IMG/VR virus record: IMGVR_UViG_3300044960_000930
Coordinates: 1-43,216 of that record
Length of the DNA stretch: 43,216 nucleotides
Reading direction: 5' to 3' (one strand)
From: a virus
Shown here: piece by piece, positions 6,952 through 19,509 of the stretch
How the letters are laid out: each line of letters begins with the position of its first letter
Position numbering within the stretch: position 1 is the stretch's first letter
Translations under genes and position numbers: made by a program
The notes under the pieces: generated by a model
Databases searched by the model: none
The model's input: only the letters and a program-made list of their open reading frames with translations
What the model was told of the DNA's origin: nothing

Positions 6952-7707
6952 ATGACCTTCGACATGAACGACGCCGAGCTGCCGCGCGGCACCGACCTCA
7001 TCCCGGACGGCAGCTTCGTGAAGGTGCGCATGGAGATCCGCAAGGGCGGCATCGATGGCGCCAGCCCCTTCGACCGGGAGTTGCTCAAGGCGGCGAAGAC
7101 GCCCGGCAGCGACGTTCGCATGCTCGACTGCGAGTTCACCGTCGTGGCGGGCTCCCACAGCAAGCGGAAATTCTGGCAGAGCTTCACCGTCGCCGGCGGC
7201 AAGGTCGACGAGCAGGGTGTGTCCATCGGCTGGAAGATCTCGAAGGGGATGTTCCGCGCGATGATCGACAGCGCGCTCGGTCTCGACCCGCACGATATGA
7301 GCGAGGCGGCAAAGGCTAAGCGGATCCTGCGTGGCCTCGCTGACCTCAACGGCATCACCTTCGCCGCGAAGCTCCGCGTCGAGCCGGCCAACGACCCCCG
7401 CTACGGCGACAACAACCGGATCGACCGGGTGGTGCTGCCGGGCGAGGCGGAATACGCGCGCATCATGGCGGGCGAGGCGCTTCCACCGCAGCCGAGCCAG
7501 CGCGCGGCGCGCGCACCGGCGGTCGCCAACACGCCGGCGACCTGGGGTGGCGGCATGGCGCCGGCCTCTCCCGGGCCCACGGCCCGGGTCTGGGAGCGCC
7601 CCTCGGCGACGCTGCCCGCCCAGCCCATGGCCTCGCCGCCAGCGCAGCCCCCCGCCCCGCCCGCCCAGGCTCCGCTGGCCGGTGGCCCGACTTGGCTGAA
7701 CGGCTAA
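6952..7707 (+). CDS. Probable phage ssDNA-binding protein paired with Sak4
   Basis: A 251-residue protein starting 3 bp after the ATPase. The N-terminal 170 residues are beta-rich with aromatic and basic residues (RKFWQSFTVAGGK, GWKISKGMFRAMIDSAL), which is compatible with an OB-fold. The C-terminal 80 residues are a low-complexity Ala/Pro linker ending in a short hydrophobic tip (GGPTWLNG). An ordered DNA-binding part plus a flexible Pro-rich tail is typical of SSB-like proteins, although the usual acidic tip is missing. Sak4 genes commonly neighbour ssb genes. I infer an SSB-like or DUF669-like role; no diagnostic motif proves it. Confidence 0.55.
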   Translation: MTFDMNDAELPRGTDLIPDGSFVKVRMEIRKGGIDGASPFDRELLKAAKTPGSDVRMLDCEFTVVAGSHSKRKFWQSFTVAGGKVDEQGVSIGWKISKGMFRAMIDSALGLDPHDMSEAAKAKRILRGLADLNGITFAAKLRVEPANDPRYGDNNRIDRVVLPGEAEYARIMAGEALPPQPSQRAARAPAVANTPATWGGGMAPASPGPTARVWERPSATLPAQPMASPPAQPPAPPAQAPLAGGPTWLNG

Positions 7708-7714
7708 TGGCGAG

Positions 7715-8170
7715 ATGGCACGACGCCGCTGGAGCCAGTCCCGGCCGCGGGCAGCGCCCGCCGCAGCGCCGGCGCCGCTGCCACGCTGCACGCCCGAGGA
7801 CCAGGTCCGGCGGCTGGTCTGCGGGCTGTGCGGCCGCGAGGCGAAGGGCTTCGGCTATGTGCACGGTCTGCGCTTTGGCGAGTTCCCGCACCACCGCTTC
7901 TGTAGCATGGCGTGCTGCGAGGCGGGCGGCGCGCTGGCGCGGAGGTCCAACGGCGTGATCGACAAGACGCCGATGGAGGCGTGCGCGATCAGGGACGCGC
8001 GCCGGCCCCTCGCCGAGGTGCTGCAGGAGCTCGGGCTGCTCGCACCCTTCCACGACCGCAGCGCGGCTGAGATCGACCGCATCATCGAGGCCTGCGTGGA
8101 CGGCTTCCAGGCCTCGATGCAGCGCCAGGCCGCCGAGCGCGATCCGCTCGACGATCCCATCCCCTTCTGA
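7715..8170 (+). CDS. Small zinc-finger-like protein (DUF6511-like)
   Basis: A 151-residue protein with a basic, Ala/Pro-rich N-terminus and then a putative treble-clef-like zinc site: CGLCGREAKGFGYVHG and, about 20 residues later, FCSMACCEAG. This CxxCGRxAxGFG...FCSxxC pattern is reminiscent of DUF6511, known from alphaproteobacterial phages and GTA relatives. The C-terminal half is helical and acidic (SAAEIDRIIEACVDGFQASM). It lies between the SSB-like and Cas4-like genes, so a DNA-processing partner role is possible. The ATG at 7715 starts 7 bp after the previous stop. Confidence 0.7.
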   Translation: MARRRWSQSRPRAAPAAAPAPLPRCTPEDQVRRLVCGLCGREAKGFGYVHGLRFGEFPHHRFCSMACCEAGGALARRSNGVIDKTPMEACAIRDARRPLAEVLQELGLLAPFHDRSAAEIDRIIEACVDGFQASMQRQAAERDPLDDPIPF

Positions 8171-9727: not shown

Positions 9728-11049
9728 GCGACATCACGCCCTCCGACACGCAACATCGGGCGATCGCCGCGATCAAGCACTGGTTCGAGAACGAGACTGT
9801 CCACAAGCAGGTCTTCCGCCTCTTCGGCTATGCCGGCACTGGCAAGTCCACCGTGCTGCGCTTCGCGCTGGAGGAGCTCGACCTCGAGCACCACCGCAGC
9901 GGCGGGGACGGTGAGCCCTGCGCGCCCGGCGTCGTCACCGCCACCTTCACCGGCAAGGCCGCGCTGGTACTGCGCCGCAAGGGCACGCCCGCGCGCACCA
10001 TCCACAGCCTCATCTACTCCGTCATCGAGGCGACGGAGGAGGAGGTCGAGGCTGCCGAGAAGAAAGTCGACGAGGCGGTGGCGCGGGCGCGGGGCCTGAC
10101 CGGCTTCGAGCGCACCACGGCCGAGGCGACGATCGAGGTGATGCGTCAGGGTGTCGCCGACATGAAGCGCCCTCGCTTCGCGCTGAACCCCAAGAGCGAC
10201 GCCGCGAACGCGAAGCTGATCGTGCTCGACGAGGTCTCCATGGTCGGCGAGGAGATGGCGCGCGATCTCCTGAGCTTCGGCAAGCCGATCCTGGTGCTCG
10301 GCGATCCCGGCCAGCTGCCGCCGATCCAGGGCGAAGGCGCGTTCACCAAGGACACGCCCGACATCATGCTGACGGAGATCCACCGCCAGGCGGCGGAGAG
10401 CGCCATCATCCGCCTCGCCACCAAGGCCCGGCAGGGCGAGCCGATCGGCTTCGGGCGCTACGACGATCACGTCTGGAAGATGCGGAAGCTCGACGTCACG
10501 CCGGAGCAGGCGCTGCGCGGCGGCCAGGTGATCTGTGGCATGAACGCGACCCGGCTGCAGCTGAACAACGCGATGCGGCGCGCCGCGGGCTTCGGTGCCG
10601 GCGGTTGGCTGCCCACCGGCCCAGGCGAGAAGATCATCTGCCTCAAGAACCAGAACGATCTTGGCCTCATCAACGGCATGTTCCTCACCCTCTCCGACAT
10701 CGTCGACGAGGGCAGCCACTACCTCTCGGCGGTGGTGACGGACGAGGACGGCAACCGCATCGGCGTTCCGCAGGCGGACGGCAGCCGCGGGCGGCTCCGC
10801 ATCTACAAGGGCCACTTCGAGGACCACGTTGCCTTCGACAAGCAGCGCCACGACCGTGACTGGAAGCTCAAGAAGGGGCTGACCGAGGCGACCTTCGGCT
10901 GGGCCATCACCGGGCACAAATCGCAGGGCTCGCAATGGGAGAACGTGGTCGTCTGGGATGACGGGCTCGGGCGGACCGAGCTCGACCGGCGCCGCTGGCT
11001 CTACACCGTGATCACGCGGGCCGAGCAGGGGCTGGTGATCCTGGGATGA
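9724..11049 (+). CDS. SF1B DNA helicase (Dda/RecD2-like)
   Basis: A 441-residue helicase; the ATG at 9724 overlaps the upstream stop by 4 bp. Motif I is FGYAGTGKST (residues about 34-43), motif Ia is TFTGKAA, motif II is LDEVSMVGEE, motif III is LGDPGQLPPI, and the C-terminal motifs include GWAITGHKSQGSQW and VITRAEQGLVI, all typical of Dda/RecD2-like superfamily 1B helicases of 5'-3' polarity. The insertion between motifs Ia and II (EEEVEAAEKKVDEAVARA) is a predicted coiled coil. It probably unwinds DNA during phage replication or recombination with the primase-helicase encoded next. Confidence 0.93.
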   Translation: MSDITPSDTQHRAIAAIKHWFENETVHKQVFRLFGYAGTGKSTVLRFALEELDLEHHRSGGDGEPCAPGVVTATFTGKAALVLRRKGTPARTIHSLIYSVIEATEEEVEAAEKKVDEAVARARGLTGFERTTAEATIEVMRQGVADMKRPRFALNPKSDAANAKLIVLDEVSMVGEEMARDLLSFGKPILVLGDPGQLPPIQGEGAFTKDTPDIMLTEIHRQAAESAIIRLATKARQGEPIGFGRYDDHVWKMRKLDVTPEQALRGGQVICGMNATRLQLNNAMRRAAGFGAGGWLPTGPGEKIICLKNQNDLGLINGMFLTLSDIVDEGSHYLSAVVTDEDGNRIGVPQADGSRGRLRIYKGHFEDHVAFDKQRHDRDWKLKKGLTEATFGWAITGHKSQGSQWENVVVWDDGLGRTELDRRRWLYTVITRAEQGLVILG

Positions 11050-13601
11050 CCGCGGCCCCGATCGACCTGAACGATGCCGGCCTGGCGCCGGTCCGGCACG
11101 ATCTGGCGGAGGTGCGGCGGCGGCTCGCGGACACCGCGAAGGAGTGGCTGCCGCCGCTGTTCCCGCAGGCGCGGCGCGCTGCTGACGGCCGGACGCTGCG
11201 CTGCGCGGATCTCTCGGGCCGCGCGCCCCGCGGCGAGGGCTCCTGCGTGATCCACCTGGAGGGGCGCTTCGCGGGGTGGGGATTCGACCATGCCACCGGC
11301 GAGAGCGCGGGACCGATCGATATGGTCTACCACGCGACCGGTGCGCCGGAGCCGCGGCTGTTCGACGAGGCGGCGAGGCTGGCGCGCATGGACAGCCCGG
11401 CGCCGCCCGCACGCGCTGCGGAGCCGCGGCCGGACCACAGCCACGAGGTCGCGCGCATCCTGGCCGGCTGCGTCCCGCTCGCGGGCTCGCCCGCCGAGGC
11501 CTACCTCCGCGGCCGCTGCCTCACGCCACCCGACAGCCCCGACCTCCTCTTCCACCCCGACCTCGCCAACTTCGAGAGCCGGCGCGGCTGGCCCGGGATG
11601 GTCGCCATCGTCCGCGACGGCTCGGGCGAGCCCACGGGCGGCATCCACCGGACTTATCTGCTGGATGACGGCTCGGGAAAGGCGCCGCCCGGGAAGAAGA
11701 TGCTCGGGCCTGTCGCCGGCGGCGCGGTGCGGCTAGCGCCCGCACGCGAGGACGGGCGGATCGGCGTGGCGGAGGGGATCGAGACCGCGCTCGCCGCCAT
11801 GGCCCTGTTCGACGTCCCCGCTATGGCGGCGCTCTCGGCCGACGGGCTGCGGCGCTGGCAGTGGCCGGATGGCACCACCCACGTCACCATTTTCGCCGAT
11901 GCCGGACACGCCGGCATGCAGGCCGCGGCGACGCTGGCGGACCGGCTGAACGTCGCGGACATCCCCTCGCGCATCGTCGCTCCGCTGCATGGCGACGACT
12001 TCAACGACGACCTGCGGCGCGGGGTAGCTGCCGCCGACTACGAGCAGGCGGCTGGCGCGGAGCCGAAAGCGCACGCCACCGCGGCAGCGCCCGCGACGGC
12101 GGAAGAGCTGCTCACCGCCGCCTCCGGTCTGACCCGGCCGCCTGACTCCGAGCCGCTCGCCGACCTGCTAGGCCGGCTGGCCCTGGCGCGGCTTGACCCG
12201 CTCCCGGAGCGGCAGGTCCTCGCCGCGGTGAAGACCGCCAGCGGCATCGCCGTCTCGATCCTGGAGAAGCAGCTGGTCGAGCTGCGCAGGCGGGTGAACG
12301 CCACCGGCGATGTCCGCCGCGCGCCTGCCCGGCCGCCCTGGGCCTCGCTGCTGCGGATCGACGCCGGCGGTGCGCCGGAGCGGAACGAGGCCAACGTCAT
12401 CACGGCGCTGTCGCTCGACGCCGCATTCACGGGCGCGCTCATGTTCGACGAATTCAGCCAGGAGATCATCGTCGCCCGGGCGCTGCCCTGGGATCCGGCA
12501 GGCACGGTGCACCCCCGGCCCTGGGGTGAGGCCGACGATGTGCGCTGCGCCGAGTGGCTGCAGCGGCACGAGATCAACATCCCGCCCGTGGTGGTCGGCC
12601 GCAGTGTCGTCGCCGTATCGCGCAACATCCGCGTTCACCCGGTGCGCGACTACCTAGAGGCGCTGGCCTGGGACGGCACGGCGCGCCTCGACACCTGGGC
12701 CGTCGCCTATCTCGGTGCCGAGGACACGCCGCTCCACCGGAGCATAGCCGCACTCTGGATGGTCTCCGCTGTCGCGCGGATCATGCAGCCCGGCTGCAAG
12801 GCCGACCACATGCTGATCCTGGAAGGGCCGCAGGGCATCCGGAAGTCGACCGCCCTGAAGGTACTGGCCTCCGAGCCCTGGTTCACCGACGAGCTCGCCG
12901 AGCTCGGCTCGAAGGACGCGGCGCAGCAGATGCGCGGCATCTGGATCATCGAGATGGCCGAGCTCGACGCCATCGGCCACGCTGACGTCTCGCGCATCAA
13001 GGCCTTCCTGAGCCGCACCACGGACCGCTACCGGCCGCCCTACGAGCGTTACGTCGTCACCGTCCCGCGGCAATGCGTCTTCGCCGGCACGGTAAACCCG
13101 GACACCTACCTGCGCGACGAGACCGGCAACCGGCGCTTCTGGCCGCTGCGCTGCGGCGACATCGACCTGGACGGGCTGCGGCGCGATCGTGACCAGCTCT
13201 GGGCCGAGGCCGTCACGCGCTATCGCGCCGGGGCGCCCTGGTGGATCGAGGACCGGGCGCTGGTGGCCGAGGCCAGCGCGGCGCAGGAGGCGCGCTACCA
13301 GGGCGATGCCTGGGACGCGCGGATCGAGCGCTGGCTCGTCTCCGAGCGCAGGCCGGTGAATGTCGGCGTCGGGCACTTCGAGGACTGGCAGGAGCGCTTT
13401 GTGCCACGGCCGAAGCCGCTGACCGACGTCTCCATCGGCGAGGTGCTGGAGCAGGCGCTCGGTATCGAGGCCGCGAAGTGGACGCGCGCCGACCAGATGC
13501 GCGTCGGCGCGTTCTTCCGCGCCAGGAAATGGGTGAAATACCGCGCGAAGAACCCGCCGCGGGAGTGGCGCCACGTCGCGCCGGGAACGCCGGTGCCATG
13601 A
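11046..13601 (+). CDS. Toprim/VirE-type primase-helicase
   Basis: An 851-residue replication protein. Residues 1-130 form a primase-like N-terminal region without an obvious Cys zinc site. A Toprim-like domain follows (VAEGIETALAAM near residue 240, then FADAGHAG near 283). From about residue 480 it is a virulence-associated E (VirE) P-loop domain: LEGPQGIRKST near 592 (Walker A), IWIIEMAELDAI (Walker B-like), FAGTVNPDTYLRDETGNRRFW (arginine-finger region). The usual Toprim DxD appears as D-A-G, so one acidic residue is missing. It overlaps the helicase stop by 4 bp and is followed directly by the iteron-like repeats, supporting a role as replication initiator/primase. Confidence 0.9.
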   Translation: MTAAPIDLNDAGLAPVRHDLAEVRRRLADTAKEWLPPLFPQARRAADGRTLRCADLSGRAPRGEGSCVIHLEGRFAGWGFDHATGESAGPIDMVYHATGAPEPRLFDEAARLARMDSPAPPARAAEPRPDHSHEVARILAGCVPLAGSPAEAYLRGRCLTPPDSPDLLFHPDLANFESRRGWPGMVAIVRDGSGEPTGGIHRTYLLDDGSGKAPPGKKMLGPVAGGAVRLAPAREDGRIGVAEGIETALAAMALFDVPAMAALSADGLRRWQWPDGTTHVTIFADAGHAGMQAAATLADRLNVADIPSRIVAPLHGDDFNDDLRRGVAAADYEQAAGAEPKAHATAAAPATAEELLTAASGLTRPPDSEPLADLLGRLALARLDPLPERQVLAAVKTASGIAVSILEKQLVELRRRVNATGDVRRAPARPPWASLLRIDAGGAPERNEANVITALSLDAAFTGALMFDEFSQEIIVARALPWDPAGTVHPRPWGEADDVRCAEWLQRHEINIPPVVVGRSVVAVSRNIRVHPVRDYLEALAWDGTARLDTWAVAYLGAEDTPLHRSIAALWMVSAVARIMQPGCKADHMLILEGPQGIRKSTALKVLASEPWFTDELAELGSKDAAQQMRGIWIIEMAELDAIGHADVSRIKAFLSRTTDRYRPPYERYVVTVPRQCVFAGTVNPDTYLRDETGNRRFWPLRCGDIDLDGLRRDRDQLWAEAVTRYRAGAPWWIEDRALVAEASAAQEARYQGDAWDARIERWLVSERRPVNVGVGHFEDWQERFVPRPKPLTDVSIGEVLEQALGIEAAKWTRADQMRVGAFFRARKWVKYRAKNPPREWRHVAPGTPVP

Positions 13602-13616
13602 TGCGGCGGCGCTCTT

Positions 13617-13902
13617 GTCCTACCTCGTCCTACCTTGTCCTACCTCGGCCATCGAGGTTGGACAGCCGGAGATCCAGCTTTTCCGCGGCTTTCCGCTCGA
13701 TCGTCCAGCCTTGTCCTACCTGTCCTACCTTTTCCCTTAGAGCCATACGCGAAGCATGTAGGTCGGTCAGACATACATTTTCCTATACGGGTTTAGGGAC
13801 GAGGTCGGCAGGTAGGACAGGTAGGACAGATCGGGACAAACTACTGATTCTGCTGCAAAATTCCTGTCCTACCTCTCCGCGCAAGGTCGGACGAGGTAGG
13901 AC
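13617..13902. repeat. GTCCTACCT iteron array, candidate replication origin
   Basis: Nine perfect copies of the 9-mer GTCCTACCT in a 448-bp gene-free stretch (13602-14049). Forward copies start at 13617, 13627, 13637, 13713, 13722 and 13866; reverse copies (AGGTAGGAC) at 13810, 13819 and 13894. The first three have an exact 10-bp period and the two close pairs a 9-bp period. Degenerate copies are at 13655 (AGGTTGGAC), 13703 (GTCCAGCCT), 13802 (AGGTCGGCA) and 13884 (AGGTCGGAC). Two AT-richer stretches (about 13730-13800 and 13830-13865) lie between the clusters. Iterons around an AT-rich unwinding region beside the primase-helicase gene suggest an origin. The rest of the gap, to 14049, shows only the RBS of the next gene. 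Confidence 0.8.
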
Positions 13903-14049
13903 CGCGCATCGTCCCGAGCACCGCAGCCCGATCGCCCGCGGGCCGCCCAGAGCGTCGATCAGCCCCTCGAAGCCGGGCAGCGACGGCGAGCTCCGCCAAG
14001 AACCGCGCCGTCGCCGCCCTCACCACAGCCATCCCCTGTCGGAGATCCC

Positions 14050-14598
14050 ATGGCTCCCGTGACTCTCCCCATGCCTGCCGCCGGCGCAAGCGGCCCGCCC
14101 ATCGCGGCTCCGCTGCCCGTGGCCCTCGGCCGCCCCGCCGTCCTCGCCCTCGACCTCGGCACCACGACTGGATGGGCGCTCCGCAGCCAAGACGGTGGCA
14201 TCACCTCCGGCACCGTCACCTTCCGCCCGAGCCGCTTCGAGGGTGGCGGCATGCGCTACCTGCGCTTCCGCAGCTGGCTCGGCGAGCTGGCAGCGCTTGC
14301 CGGCGGCCTCACGCGCATCGCCTTCGAGGAGGTGCGCTCCCACGCCGGCACCGATGCCGCGCATCTCTACGGCGGCTTCCTCGCCCACCTGTCCGCCTGG
14401 TGCGAGGAGCGGGGCATTGCCTACGAGGGCGCTCCGGTCGGCACCATCAAGCGCTTCGCAACCGGCCGCGGGAATGCCGACAAGGCGGCGATGATCGCGG
14501 CAGTGCGCGCCCGCGGCTTCGCGCCGGCGGACGACAACGAGGCGGACGCCATCGCCCTCCTCCTGTGGGCGACCGACCCGCACGGTGGTCGGGCATGA
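14050..14598 (+). CDS. RuvC-like Holliday junction resolvase
   Basis: A 182-residue protein with an RNase H-fold resolvase layout: VLALDLGTTTGWAL (first catalytic Asp, near residue 34), IAFEEVRSHAG (Glu near 92) and a C-terminal acidic motif, ADDNEADAIALLLWA (Asp pair near 161-167). The spacing matches phage RuvC-type nucleases. It is preceded by GGAG 6 nt before the ATG. The first 25 residues are Ala/Pro-rich. The likely job is to resolve branched replication and recombination intermediates before packaging. The C-terminus overlaps the next small gene by 4 bp. Confidence 0.88.
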   Translation: MAPVTLPMPAAGASGPPIAAPLPVALGRPAVLALDLGTTTGWALRSQDGGITSGTVTFRPSRFEGGGMRYLRFRSWLGELAALAGGLTRIAFEEVRSHAGTDAAHLYGGFLAHLSAWCEERGIAYEGAPVGTIKRFATGRGNADKAAMIAAVRARGFAPADDNEADAIALLLWATDPHGGRA

Positions 14599-15366: not shown

Positions 15367-15454
15367 ACGAGTTCAGGCGAAATCAGACCCCTCATGCAAT
15401 GAATACAGGCAGGGGTTGAATGCTGTAGAATTGCGATTAGCGAATCGGGCAGCC

Positions 15455-15490
15455 CGCCTCGCTCCGGAGGCGCTGCGAGAGCAGCGCCTC
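15455..15490 (+). promoter_or_regulatory. Two mutually exclusive hairpins before the BstA-like gene
   Basis: GAGGCGCTGC (15467-15476) and GCAGCGCCTC (15481-15490) form a perfect 10-bp inverted repeat with a GAGA loop. The left arm can also pair with CGCCTC at 15455-15460 through a 6-nt loop (GAGGCG at 15467-15472), so two structures compete. They lie 33 bp before the ATG at 15524. An upstream inverted repeat ACCCCT/AGGGGT (15387-15392, 15411-15416) and a possible -10 box TAGAAT (15426-15431) are also present. They may act as attenuator, operator or a BstA-type immunity element; none is shown. Confidence 0.5.
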
Positions 15491-15523
15491 AAGTGCTTGT
15501 CTGAAATGGGAAAGCTGACTGAC

Positions 15524-16441
15524 ATGGCCCTTCCGAGCAGCACCCCTCAGCAGCTGAGCCTCGGCGTTCTGAAGGAGATCGAGGTCGACGGGGTCGCCAT
15601 GGGCGTCTTGACCGACGGCACTCCCTATCTGACGGGGCGCGGGTTGGCTCGGATGTGCGGCATCGACAACTCGGCCATCACCCGGATCCAGTCGGGCTGG
15701 AACCTGCCCGAACTCCGACCGCGCGAGGCGAAGATCAAGGAAAATCTGCGACAGCAGGGCATCGTTCTCGACCAACCCTACATAAAGATCGAAATTGGCG
15801 GAACAACTACCTACGCCTATCCAGATACGGTGTGCATGGCGGTTCTTGAATATTATGCGTTTGAAGGTGCCGCGCCGGAAGCGCGCGATCATGCGCTCAA
15901 GAACTACCGCCTTCTTGCCCGAAGGAGCTTTAGGGATTTTATCTACACCCAAGTTGGGTATAGTCCCACAGTCGAGATTCCCGCCGTCTGGCAGCAATTC
16001 CACGACCGCGTTTCACTCATGTTCGACAGCGTCCCGGCTGGATACTTCAGCGTGTTCAAGGAGATTGCCGACATCATCGTGACTCTCATTCGAAGCGGGG
16101 CGCGCATTGGTAAGGAGTTCATTCCGGATATCAGTGTTGGACAGCATTGGGGAACGTACTGGAGAGATAACGGCTGTGAGGAGCGGCTGGGGGCGCGGCG
16201 ACGGTATAACCACAACTACCCCGATTATTTCCCACAATCGGCTTCGAATCCTCAGCCTGCCTACTGCTACCCCGACGCAGCGCTAGGCGAGTTCCGAAAG
16301 TGGGTGCGCGAAGTCTACTTGCCCGAGAAGCTTCCGGCTTACCTCGGCTCGAAGACCAAGCAGGGCGCTCTGCCGCCGTCAGTTGCTGAGATGGCGCAGC
16401 GTGCTGTCGCTGACCGGGGAAAGGGCGGTGCGCTTAGTTAA
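15524..16441 (+). CDS. bstA-like: BstA-like prophage abortive-infection protein
   Basis: A 305-residue protein from the ATG at 15524 (GGGAAAG 9 nt upstream); a TTG at 15416 or the ATG at 15506 would extend it through the hairpins. The N-terminal half (LKEIEVDGVAMGVLTDGTPY, LTGRGLARMCGIDNSAITRI) resembles a KilA-N/Ant-type DNA-binding domain. The C-terminal half carries PDISVGQHWGTYW (about residue 200), HNYPDYFPQS (about 229) and YPDAALGEFRKWVREVYLPEKLPAYL, a pattern I associate with BstA of Salmonella phage BTP1. BstA aborts infection by other phages, and its own phage is protected by the aba DNA element. The gene is AT-richer than its neighbours and stands alone between operons, as expected for a moron. 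A phage antirepressor is the alternative. Confidence 0.68.
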   Translation: MALPSSTPQQLSLGVLKEIEVDGVAMGVLTDGTPYLTGRGLARMCGIDNSAITRIQSGWNLPELRPREAKIKENLRQQGIVLDQPYIKIEIGGTTTYAYPDTVCMAVLEYYAFEGAAPEARDHALKNYRLLARRSFRDFIYTQVGYSPTVEIPAVWQQFHDRVSLMFDSVPAGYFSVFKEIADIIVTLIRSGARIGKEFIPDISVGQHWGTYWRDNGCEERLGARRRYNHNYPDYFPQSASNPQPAYCYPDAALGEFRKWVREVYLPEKLPAYLGSKTKQGALPPSVAEMAQRAVADRGKGGALS

Positions 16442-16775: not shown

Positions 16776-18254
16776 ATGCCCCAGGCCCCATGGTCTGCGA
16801 GCGCCGTCGAGGCGCGCGCGGTCGCCGCGCTGCTGCCCTATGCTGGCAACGCGCGCACGCATTCGCCCGAGCAGGTGGCGCAGATCGCGGCCAGCATCCT
16901 GGAGTTCGGCTTCGTCGCGCCGGTGCTGGTCGACGAGCGCGGCGAGATCATCGCCGGCCATGGTCGGCTGCTGGCCGCGAAGTCCCTCGGCCTCGACACT
17001 GTGCCGACGATCGTCCGCGGCGGCCTGACCGAGGCCCAGAAGGCAGCGTATCGCCTCGCCGACAATCGCATCGCGCTGAACGCCGGCTGGGACGAAGCGC
17101 TGCTCGCGGCCGAGGTCACGAAGCTGCAGGAGATGGGCGGCGTCGACCTGGCGCTGACCGGCTTCGACGGCGCCGAGATCGAGCGGCTCCTGGCCGGACT
17201 GGAAACCGAGGCTGGCAACCTCCCAGCGCCGGCGGTTGCCAGCGTTGCCGAGCCGGCCCCTGGCAATCAGCCGGACGCGGATGGCGCCGAGCCGGTTGCG
17301 GATCCCGCGGATGCCGAACCGGAGCCGCCACGCCAGGCCGTCGCGCGGGTCGGCGACATCTGGCTGCTGGGCGAGCATCGCCTGGCCTGCGGCGACAGCA
17401 CGAACCGCAGCACCGTCGCGCGCGTGATGGCCACCGATCGCGCGTCGTTGCTCTTCACCAGCCCGCCCTACGGGAACCAGCGGGACTACACCACCGGCGG
17501 CGTCTCGGATTGGGACGCGCTGATGCAGGGCGTGTTCCAGCATCTCGACGGCGCGCTGCGCCGCGACGCGCAGGTGCTGGTGAATCTCGGGCTGATCCAC
17601 CGCGAGGGCGAGTGGCAGCCCTACTGGCAGGGCTGGCTCGACTGGATGCGCGCGCAGGGCTGGCGTCGCTTCGGGCTCTACGCCTGGGACCAGGGCCCCG
17701 GCCTGCCTGGGGACTGGAACGGCCGCCTCGCACCGGCCTTCGAGTTGGTGTTCCACTTCAATCGCGAGGCGCGGCCCCCCAACAAGATCGTGCCCTGCAA
17801 ATGGGCCGGCACGCCGAACAAGGGCAGCGGCTTGCGCGCCGCCGACGGGGAGGTGAAGGCCTACACCCACATCGGCCTGCCGGTGCAGGAGATGCGCATC
17901 CCCGACAGCGTGCTGCGCATCACGCGGCATAAGGGGCGGGGGATCGAGACCGAGCACCCGGCGGTGTTCCCCGTCGCGCTGCCAGAGTTCCTGATGCGCA
18001 CCTACACGGACGAGGGCGACGTCGTGTTCGAGCCGTTCGGCGGCTCCGGCACGACGATCCTGGCGGGCCAGCGGACGGGCCGGCGCGTCCGCGCCATCGA
18101 GCTTGCTCCTGCCTATGTCGACCTGGCGATCGCGCGCTGGCGCATGCTGCATCCCGACGTGCCGGTGATCCTGGACGATGGCGGGCACGGCATCGGCCCA
18201 GATTACGACGCCGTGGCCGCGACCCGCGGGGAGGCGACAGCCGATGCTGCCTGA
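16776..18254 (+). CDS. ParB-like/DNA methyltransferase fusion, SPPY type
   Basis: A 492-residue protein. Residues about 10-100 form a ParB/sulfiredoxin-fold domain (LLPYAGNARTHSPEQVAQIAASI, then IIAGHGRLLAAKSLG and YRLADNRIAL). After an acidic/Pro linker comes a beta-class methyltransferase: motif IV TSPPYGNQ (near residue 228) before motif I FEPFGGSGTTILAGQ (near 418). The SPPY form is usual for N4-cytosine enzymes, so an m4C product is suggested but not certain. No restriction endonuclease gene is adjacent. It overlaps the second fusion by 11 bp, so the two are co-expressed, probably to mark or protect phage DNA. Confidence 0.92.
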   Translation: MPQAPWSASAVEARAVAALLPYAGNARTHSPEQVAQIAASILEFGFVAPVLVDERGEIIAGHGRLLAAKSLGLDTVPTIVRGGLTEAQKAAYRLADNRIALNAGWDEALLAAEVTKLQEMGGVDLALTGFDGAEIERLLAGLETEAGNLPAPAVASVAEPAPGNQPDADGAEPVADPADAEPEPPRQAVARVGDIWLLGEHRLACGDSTNRSTVARVMATDRASLLFTSPPYGNQRDYTTGGVSDWDALMQGVFQHLDGALRRDAQVLVNLGLIHREGEWQPYWQGWLDWMRAQGWRRFGLYAWDQGPGLPGDWNGRLAPAFELVFHFNREARPPNKIVPCKWAGTPNKGSGLRAADGEVKAYTHIGLPVQEMRIPDSVLRITRHKGRGIETEHPAVFPVALPEFLMRTYTDEGDVVFEPFGGSGTTILAGQRTGRRVRAIELAPAYVDLAIARWRMLHPDVPVILDDGGHGIGPDYDAVAATRGEATADAA

Positions 18255-19509
18255 CCTCCGCGTGGAGATGATGCCGGTGGCCTCGCTGGCGCCCTATGCC
18301 GCCAACGCCCGCCTGCACCCCACCGAGCAGGTGGCGCAGCTCGCCGCCTCGATCGGGGAGTTCGGCTTCAACGTGCCGGTGCTGGTGGATGACGCCGGCG
18401 TGCTCATCGCGGGCCATGGCCGCGTGCTGGCGGCGAAGGCGCTCGGCCTCGAGGAAGTCCCCGCCATCCGGCTCGGCCATCTGACGGAGGCGCAGGCGCG
18501 GGCGTTCCGGCTGGCGGACAACCAGCTGGCGCTGAACTCCACCTGGGACGAGGGACTGCTCGCTGCCGAGCTGCGCGCCCTGCGCACCGACGAGTTCGAC
18601 CTCGGGCTGATCGGCTTCGACGGTGCGACGCTGGATCGGCTGCTGGGTGATGCCACGCAGGACGCACCCGCGCCGGGCGGGGCTCCTGACGCGCCGGCGC
18701 CGGAGCCGCCGGAGGCGCCCGTCACCCGGCCCGGAGATCTCTGGCTGCTCGGGCCGCATCGCCTGCTATGCGGCGACGCCACCAGCGCCAGCGATGTGGC
18801 CCGGCTGCTCGACGGCGCGAAGCCGCACCTGATGATCACGGACCCGCCTTACGGGGTGAACTACGATCCGGAGTGGCGGAACGAGGCTGGTGTCTCGGCC
18901 ACGATGCGCACCGGCAAGGTGACGAATGACGACCGCGCCGACTGGCGCGAGGCCTGGGCGCTGTTCCCCGGCGACGTCGCCTATGTCTGGCACGCGGGCG
19001 TGCACGCGCGCACCGTGATCGAGAGCCTCGAGGCGGCCGGCTTCGTGGTGCGCAGCCAGATCGTCTGGGCGAAGTCGCGCTTCGTGCTGGGGCGCGGCGA
19101 CTACCATTGGCAGCACGAGCCCTGCCTCTATGCGGTGCGCAAGGGCGCGACCGGCCACTGGCAGGGCGCGCGCGACCAGGCGACGCTCTGGCCGATCAGC
19201 ACGGGCGGCGACGAGGACGCGGCGACCGTGCACGGCACCCAGAAGCCGGTCGAGTGCATGCGCCGGCCGATCGTCAACAACAGCGCGCCCGGGGACGGGG
19301 TCTACGAGCCATTCTCTGGCAGCGGCAGCACCATCATCGCGGCGGAGACCACCGGACGCGTCTGCTTCGCGATGGAGATCGACCCGCGCTATGTCGATGT
19401 GGCGGTGCGCCGCTGGCAGGCCTTCACGGGCCGTGCCGCCGTGCTGGCGGGGGAGGAGCGGGTCTTCGACGACATCGCCGCCGCCCGCAGCACGCAGGCG
19501 GCGGCGTGA
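18244..19509 (+). CDS. ParB-like/DNA methyltransferase fusion, DPPY type
   Basis: A 421-residue paralogue of the preceding gene, starting at the ATG at 18244 inside its end. The ParB-like domain (SLAPYAANARLHPTEQVAQLAASI, then LIAGHGRVLAAKALG and FRLADNQLAL) is followed by a short Ala/Pro linker and a beta-class methyltransferase with motif IV TDPPYGVNY and motif I YEPFSGSGSTIIAAE. DPPY points to an N6-adenine target. The ParB domains are close to each other, but the catalytic halves differ more, consistent with two different base specificities. It ends 14 bp before a convergent gene. Confidence 0.92.
   Translation: MLPDLRVEMMPVASLAPYAANARLHPTEQVAQLAASIGEFGFNVPVLVDDAGVLIAGHGRVLAAKALGLEEVPAIRLGHLTEAQARAFRLADNQLALNSTWDEGLLAAELRALRTDEFDLGLIGFDGATLDRLLGDATQDAPAPGGAPDAPAPEPPEAPVTRPGDLWLLGPHRLLCGDATSASDVARLLDGAKPHLMITDPPYGVNYDPEWRNEAGVSATMRTGKVTNDDRADWREAWALFPGDVAYVWHAGVHARTVIESLEAAGFVVRSQIVWAKSRFVLGRGDYHWQHEPCLYAVRKGATGHWQGARDQATLWPISTGGDEDAATVHGTQKPVECMRRPIVNNSAPGDGVYEPFSGSGSTIIAAETTGRVCFAMEIDPRYVDVAVRRWQAFTGRAAVLAGEERVFDDIAAARSTQAAA

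Follow-up and report, generated by a model that had tools for sequence, protein, structure and literature searches.

The window is a 43,216-bp virus record from IMG/VR, and its genes for a terminase, portal, major head protein, tape measure and tail fibre, together with a serine integrase gene, mark it as the genome of a temperate tailed phage. The gap (13602-14049) from the stop codon of a primase-helicase gene (11046-13601) to the start codon (ATG) of a ruvC-like gene (14050-14598) was occupied by an array of short repeats, which confirmed the original prediction of a gene-free position directly after the primase-helicase. An exact-match scan recovered the nine perfect copies of GTCCTACCT described earlier, all within 286 bp (13617-13902) and far above chance. 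With one mismatch allowed, GTCCTACCT had 20 matches in the window, compared with 2.97 (S.D. 1.74, largest 7) in 100 dinucleotide-preserving shuffles of the window; 11 of the 20 fell within the 286-bp stretch, which was the sole cluster in the full window. The count of four near-perfect copies in the original prediction was about right, as two copies carried one mismatch (13655 and 13884, both reverse) and three carried two (13703 forward; 13756 and 13760 reverse, overlapping each other). The predicted spacing of 9 or 10 bp was correct within clusters. Of the predicted forward and reverse clusters with an AT-richer middle, the middle was retained as a core of 49% A+T, and the orientation was better described as mixed outer sites around inner inward-facing pairs, the inner forward pair (13713, 13722) opposing the inner reverse pair (13810, 13819) across 79 bp. 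Scans for terminators and for promoters of the sigma-70 type (13500-14150) gave no match in the gap, Rfam returned only sub-threshold, chance-level matches that were mostly microRNA-like, and a literature search for the motif gave 145 hits, of which those listed were all unrelated.

Table 1. Features of the repeat array and of the genes on either side of it, in window coordinates.
Feature	Position	Strand	Basis
Primase-helicase, 851 aa, proposed origin initiator	11046..13601	+	Pfam PF23639, PF13362, PF05272; PDB 7pds
Winged-helix codons, residues about 793-846	13422..13583	+	AlphaFold2 model, mean pLDDT 83.8
Codon of residue 814 (Arg in the window), first residue of recognition helix	13485..13487	+	covaries with iteron right half
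Codon of residue 821 (Gly in the window), same recognition-helix face	13506..13508	+	covaries with iteron right half
Codon of residue 833 (Arg in the window), wing base	13542..13544	+	covaries perfectly with left half (GTCC/GTCA)
Exact GTCCTACCT, forward	13617, 13627, 13637, 13713, 13722, 13866	+	
Exact GTCCTACCT, reverse	13810, 13819, 13894	-	
Left outer iterons, three GTCCTACCT	13617..13645	+	10-bp spacing
Left outer reverse iteron, GTCCAACCT	13655..13663	-	1 mismatch
Inner forward iteron pair, with a 2-mismatch copy at 13703	13713..13730	+	9-bp spacing
AT-richer core, proposed melting region	13731..13809		49% AT vs window 28%; conserved ACATACATTTTCCTATACGGGTTTAGG
Inner reverse iteron pair	13810..13827	-	9-bp spacing
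Right outer forward iteron	13866..13874	+	
Right outer reverse iterons, GTCCGACCT + GTCCTACCT	13884..13902	-	10-bp spacing
RuvC-like gene, downstream of the array in nearly all relatives	14050..14598	+	phrog_159 E 5.9e-27, synteny

The primase-helicase consisted of a DUF7146 domain (residues 131-230), a Toprim domain (239-326), a VapE-like P-loop helicase (537-749) and a C-terminal winged helix (about 795-846). It matched PF23639, PF13362 and PF05272 (E 4.8e-85), and its closest solved relative was SaPI1 PriRep1 (PDB 7pds; E 2.1e-60; Foldseek E 5e-24), PF05272, 7pds_A and Foldseek all indicating a VapE helicase domain with homology to SaPI PriRep1. No known phage gave a match spanning 80% of the protein, and no Rep_3-type initiator was matched among the early proteins scanned. 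The AlphaFold2 model of residues 740-851 predicted a recognition helix at 814-826, a strand at 830-833 and a wing at 834-840. Aligned alone, the winged-helix domain hit 7pds_B 345-470 with Z 5.5, among unrelated winged helices, so that the fold itself was found and the domain-specific match to 7pds was weak.

A set of 80 viral primase-helicase relatives was collected and extended by further scans; relatives within bacterial genomes lay in Roseomonas-type Acetobacterales, Rhodobacterales, Magnetospirillum and other Alphaproteobacteria. The array was mostly just upstream of the ruvC-like gene, even with 1-4.3 kb of other genes after the helicase, and the 18 of the first relatives in which it lay at this distance from the helicase gene were counted against the reading of an origin next to its initiator. 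In 144 of 157 arrays the forward sites stood to the left of the largest gap and the reverse sites to its right; this gap (median 84 bp) exceeded its surroundings in A+T content in 152 of 157 arrays. The layout of a SaPI/PICI origin, two iteron sets flanking an AT-rich region 3' of rep, was found, some relatives having intervening genes. GC skew shifted across the array in the expected direction, weakly, at 64 of 100 loci that were not independent of one another.

The iteron word within this layout switched in concert among GTCCTACCT, GTCCAACCT, GTCCCACCT, GTCCCAACCT, GTCACCACCT and GTCACCAACCT. The pattern +++-++--+-- carried GTCCTACCT in the window, L005 and L022, and GTCCAACCT at the same places in L006, L018, L021 and L038. 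The GTCCTACCT copies of L005 were at offsets 19, 29, 39, 57-, 115, 124, 212-, 221-, 268, 286- and 296-, and L006 and L018 had GTCCAACCT at all of these except the last. Exact class words matched the class of their own array in 1312 of 1500 cases, and unsupervised word counts converged on a small set (GTCCTACCT, GTCCAACCT, GTCCCAC(C/T)T, GTCCCAACCT, GTCACCACCT, GTCACCAACCT, GTCCCCAC(C/T)T, GTGCACCACCT and GTTCCCACCT). The check proposed in the original prediction, to look for the 9-mer next to homologous primase-helicases, thus found arrays in which the 9-mer itself was not conserved, being one of about ten interchangeable words. At 28 distinct loci no array was classified; for some of these the contig ended or the word was outside the word list. 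Three hybrid arrays (L013 at 7640-7890, L015 and L016) combined a left part of GTCCCACCT type with a right part of GTCCTACCT type, and may be intermediates in the switching of words.

Between the array and ruvC, at 13975-14050, was a highly conserved hairpin with a 14-bp arm, two-sided changes at 5 pairs and an RNA fold z-score of -2.2. The loop, GCUCCG, could base-pair with CGGAG, the ribosome-binding site of ruvC, and the hairpin looks like a translational-control RNA. Its core word had exact matches in about 80-90 stretches of IMG/VR; ruvC lay downstream in 74 of the 78 that were newly fetched. In other Acetobacterales phages (L393, L406, L410, L433 and L441) the same ruvC and leader came after unrelated helicases (AAA_25 or D5_N/DUF5906) with arrays of their own, one example being AAGTTCCGCA with up to 12 core-word copies. 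Since other helicases before the same ruvC carried their own arrays, the helicase gene and its array behaved as one exchangeable cassette.

Covariation between residues and bases was determined for 164 distinct primase-array pairs, 163 of them in an alignment of 851 columns. Residue 833 (Gln versus Arg/Lys) predicted GTCA versus GTCC in 163 of 163 distinct pairs. Gln833 was found with GTCA-type words in 44 of 44 (the GTGCACC word of L048 being counted) and Arg/Lys833 with GTCC or GTTC in all others. Column 833 ranked first of 851 for the left half with a normalised mutual information of 1.0 (next 0.74), and 11 of 11 phylogenetically independent pairs, drawn on a tree built without the C-terminus, agreed (p 0.001). 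The right half was predicted by residues 821 and 814 in 149 and 148 of 152 pairs respectively; these columns ranked first and second (0.89 and 0.82; next 0.54), and 20-22 of 23 independent pairs agreed, none being opposite. Lys814 with Gly821 occurred with CAC at 63 loci, L114 having CTAC, and Arg814 with Ser/Thr/Ala821 occurred with CAAC at 84 loci, with the mixed 3:3 array of L070 as the single exception. The other single-residue exceptions were disagreements between 814 and 821 (L062, L065, L137, L140 and L341). When the rules taken from L005-L084 were applied to later loci, the 833 rule held at 85 of 85 and the right-half rules at 80 of 82 and 81 of 82; for held-out loci with less than 90% core identity to any training locus, the values were 33/33, 30/32 and 31/32. 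Words differed between some natural pairs with helicase cores that were 95-97% identical, for example L049 (Gln833) and L054 (Arg833), or L063 and L100. The window protein (Arg814, Gly821, Arg833) grouped with short GTC-CTACCT and GTC-CAACCT words. Word position 5 (T, A or C) was only partly explained by residues 814, 821 and 833, as the initiators of T9 and A9 words shared Arg814, Gly821 and Arg833 and differed at 836/838/843, in or beside the wing; L114 carried the T9 word without these changes, so they are not the whole answer. By parsimony the iteron class changed at least 44 times on the tree, a parsimony figure rather than a count of events, since recombination within the gene may blur the tree.

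We considered whether the helicase C-terminus had simply hitch-hiked with the adjacent array, and rejected this, because the columns nearest the array (839-851) were low while 833, 821 and 814 peaked, and because arrays 1-4.3 kb from the helicase gene still obeyed the rule. For the right half, no column of the neighbouring proteins scored on the same loci rose above 0.53, or above 0.36 once the small DUF6456 set was left out; the DUF6456 protein reached 1.0 for the left half, on only 7 GTCA loci. These control proteins and the low columns 839-851 argue against linkage as an explanation of the covariation. RuvC, whose best right-half association of any column was 0.24, was rejected as the binder, as were the ParB-methyltransferase, helicase, Cas4-like and other early proteins, which had no column near 821/814. 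As no other column or neighbouring protein matched the covariation overall, the primase-helicase was taken as by far the most probable binder, and its naming as a possible binder in the original prediction is now strongly supported by covariation at recognition-helix and wing positions of its C-terminal winged helix. Residues 814, 821 and 833, on the predicted recognition helix and wing base, are among those expected to touch DNA. Contacts of Gln with A, and of Arg or Lys with a G:C pair, are common in protein-DNA recognition, and the covariation agrees with them.

Helicase-array pairs were also found in phages only distantly related to this lineage. In Pseudomonas phage vB_Pae_U5, whose helicase was about 40% identical and outside the training set, the equivalents of Lys814, Gly821 and Arg833 accompanied GTCCCACCT in an inverted array, as the code predicts, whereas the GTCACCCC array of Marinobacter phage PS3 broke the 833 rule. 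Arrays 3' of VapE helicase genes were present in Staphylococcus R1988 (TGATGCAACA), Clostridioides phiCDKH02 (GTCAACA) and Streptococcus satellite Javan293 (TGCTACA). Loci L379, L381, L382 and L383 cover repeat arrays of this kind from phages of Staphylococcus, Clostridioides and Corynebacterium and from a satellite of Streptococcus, the Corynebacterium array having three copies only. Bacteroides phage BS162P3 had no array after its VapE helicase, and Caulobacter BL94 at most a weak one. The same layout beside VapE helicases in Firmicutes, Pseudomonas and Marinobacter phages suggests that PICI-type origins extend beyond satellites. When IMG/VR was searched with the doubled word and nothing else, four contigs were returned, two of them from the family of the window. 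Another, L384 (8043-8340), thus detected by motif alone, had inverted GTCCTACCT/GTCCCACCT sets immediately 3' of a gene for a DUF5906 helicase. L385 (2510-2570) had five tandem CGTCCTACCT copies, with no inverted set, and these lay upstream of a ParB-like gene.

Taken together, it is highly likely that 13617-13902 is the replication origin of a temperate phage and that the upstream primase-helicase is its initiator, with a C-terminal winged helix reading the iterons. The repeated 9-mer is very probably the docking site for the start of phage DNA copying. From the array, its conserved geometry, the homology to the SaPI initiator and the residue-base covariation, we infer binding, ring loading, melting, priming and in vivo origin use. 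In the proposed mechanism, the winged helix would bind each 9-bp iteron, residues 814 and 821 reading its right half and residue 833 at the wing base its left half. On both flanks of the AT-richer core, the two inward-facing bound sets would build helicase rings; the core would melt so that the helicases load, and the Toprim domain would then prime. An iteron origin beside a VirE-type primase-helicase, as originally predicted, is thereby supported as the best explanation by sequence comparison.

The array might instead be an operator through which the primase-helicase or another early protein controls transcription of ruvC and the genes downstream, with replication starting elsewhere. Origin iterons often serve as operators too, and the array lay upstream of ruvC in nearly all relatives. 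However, no promoter-like match of the sigma-70 type was present in 13500-14150, the array had no second copy in the genome, other helicase families before the same ruvC brought their own arrays, and inverted sets around an AT-richer core suit an origin better; we regard an operator as improbable. It is marginally less probable still that the primase-helicase binds the array for incompatibility, copy control or later recombination-dependent replication rather than initiation. The covariation supports binding and is silent on what binding does, but the organisation equals that of the functionally tested PICI rep-ori replicons (PMC6092414).

Nearby genes raised two further alternatives, each of which we consider very improbable. 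A parS-like partition site could serve the ParB-domain methyltransferases at 16776-19509, since ParB-like N-termini are encoded by two genes 3-5 kb downstream; however, the best methyltransferase column scored 0.34 for the right half, where residue 821 scored 1.00, in a comparison limited to the 66 of 163 loci at which a methyltransferase was detected. The two genes (16776-18254 and 18178-19509) are adjacent and slightly overlapping, and both match the ParB-N/DNA methyltransferase family phrog_498. The BstA defence protein suppresses phage DNA replication, and aba, the element that gives self-immunity, is a stretch of DNA containing direct repeats (PMC8585504). A BstA homologue (15416-16441; PADLOC E 1.7e-120) is 1.5 kb from the array, which could accordingly be read as aba. 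The described aba repeats are CCCGCC and overlap the bstA start (PMC8585504), and among roughly 80 first relatives, most of which have arrays, BstA was in the same place only in L005 (100% identical) and inverted in L076 (41%). This reading was rejected, as the array does not co-occur with bstA. The homologue lies in a low-GC stretch (about 59% versus about 71%), is absent from nearly all relatives, and was probably inserted recently, at 1.5 kb from the candidate origin.

Within the origin reading, opinion was evenly balanced on a modular two-half recognition code with freely combining halves, in which concerted array rewriting fits selection for origins that rivals cannot use or block. Under this code the left half would be GTCC (Arg/Lys833) or GTCAC (Gln833), the right half would be CACCT (Lys814 and Gly821) or CAACCT (Arg814 and Ser/Thr/Ala821), and their free combination would give iterons of 9, 10 and 11 bp. 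If it is true, the rivals whose use or blocking of origins is avoided would be competing phages, prophages or satellites. An origin, an initiator and specificity residues are thus proposed from sequence alone for a large uncharacterised alphaproteobacterial phage lineage, and the rule predicts the origin word of held-out phages. Near-identical natural helicase pairs with different words make initiator-origin recognition directly testable, and raise the general question of why origins switch identity so often, and whether this is an escape from interference.

Several known systems resemble the proposed origin. The C-terminal domain of SaPI Rep recognises iterons directly downstream of the rep gene (PMC7581432), and PICI origins, tested on plasmids, have two iteron sets flanking an AT-rich region (PMC6092414). 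SaPI/PICI Rep-ori systems (SaPI1 PriRep1, EcCICFT073) have in common with the window a VapE-type initiator helicase, a C-terminal DNA-binding domain and an origin directly 3' of the gene. They belong to satellites, whereas the window is a temperate phage of full size that encodes an integrase, terminase, portal and tail of its own; it also differs in its iterons of 9-11 bp of the GTC...ACCT family, a fused Toprim primase, and a specificity that would vary by three residues. The window origin would therefore work like a PICI origin, in an element that is not a PICI because it has its own structural and serine integrase genes. In phage P4, the C-terminal part of the alpha protein, a primase-helicase, binds origin iterons at ori/crr; the scheme is shared, and by description the helicase family and the iterons are others. 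The SCCmec helicase Cch2 binds direct repeats downstream of its operon, a putative origin, via its isolated C-terminal domain (PMC7581432). Such repeat binding is proposed for the window as well; unlike the window, Cch2 has only three 5-bp iterons and a D5-type helicase, and no family of matched variants is described. Geminivirus Rep iterons covary with an iteron-related domain (Arguello-Astorga and Ruiz-Medrano 2001, as cited in PMC12548392). This was likewise reported as a comparative covariation of initiator residues and iterons, in rolling-circle, single-stranded DNA plant viruses whose protein and fold are unrelated to the window initiator. Specificity in ColE2/ColE3 Rep-ori depends on an indel of one base in the site and on a small region of the protein; unlike the window, the Rep is unrelated, the site single and the types only two. 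Rep_3-type plasmids have iterons of about 17-22 bp, compared with 9-11 bp in the lineage of the window, which falls outside that group. A Rep-ori of the SaPI/PICI kind was already known, and what would be new here is a natural, modular and repeatedly switching initiator-origin code.
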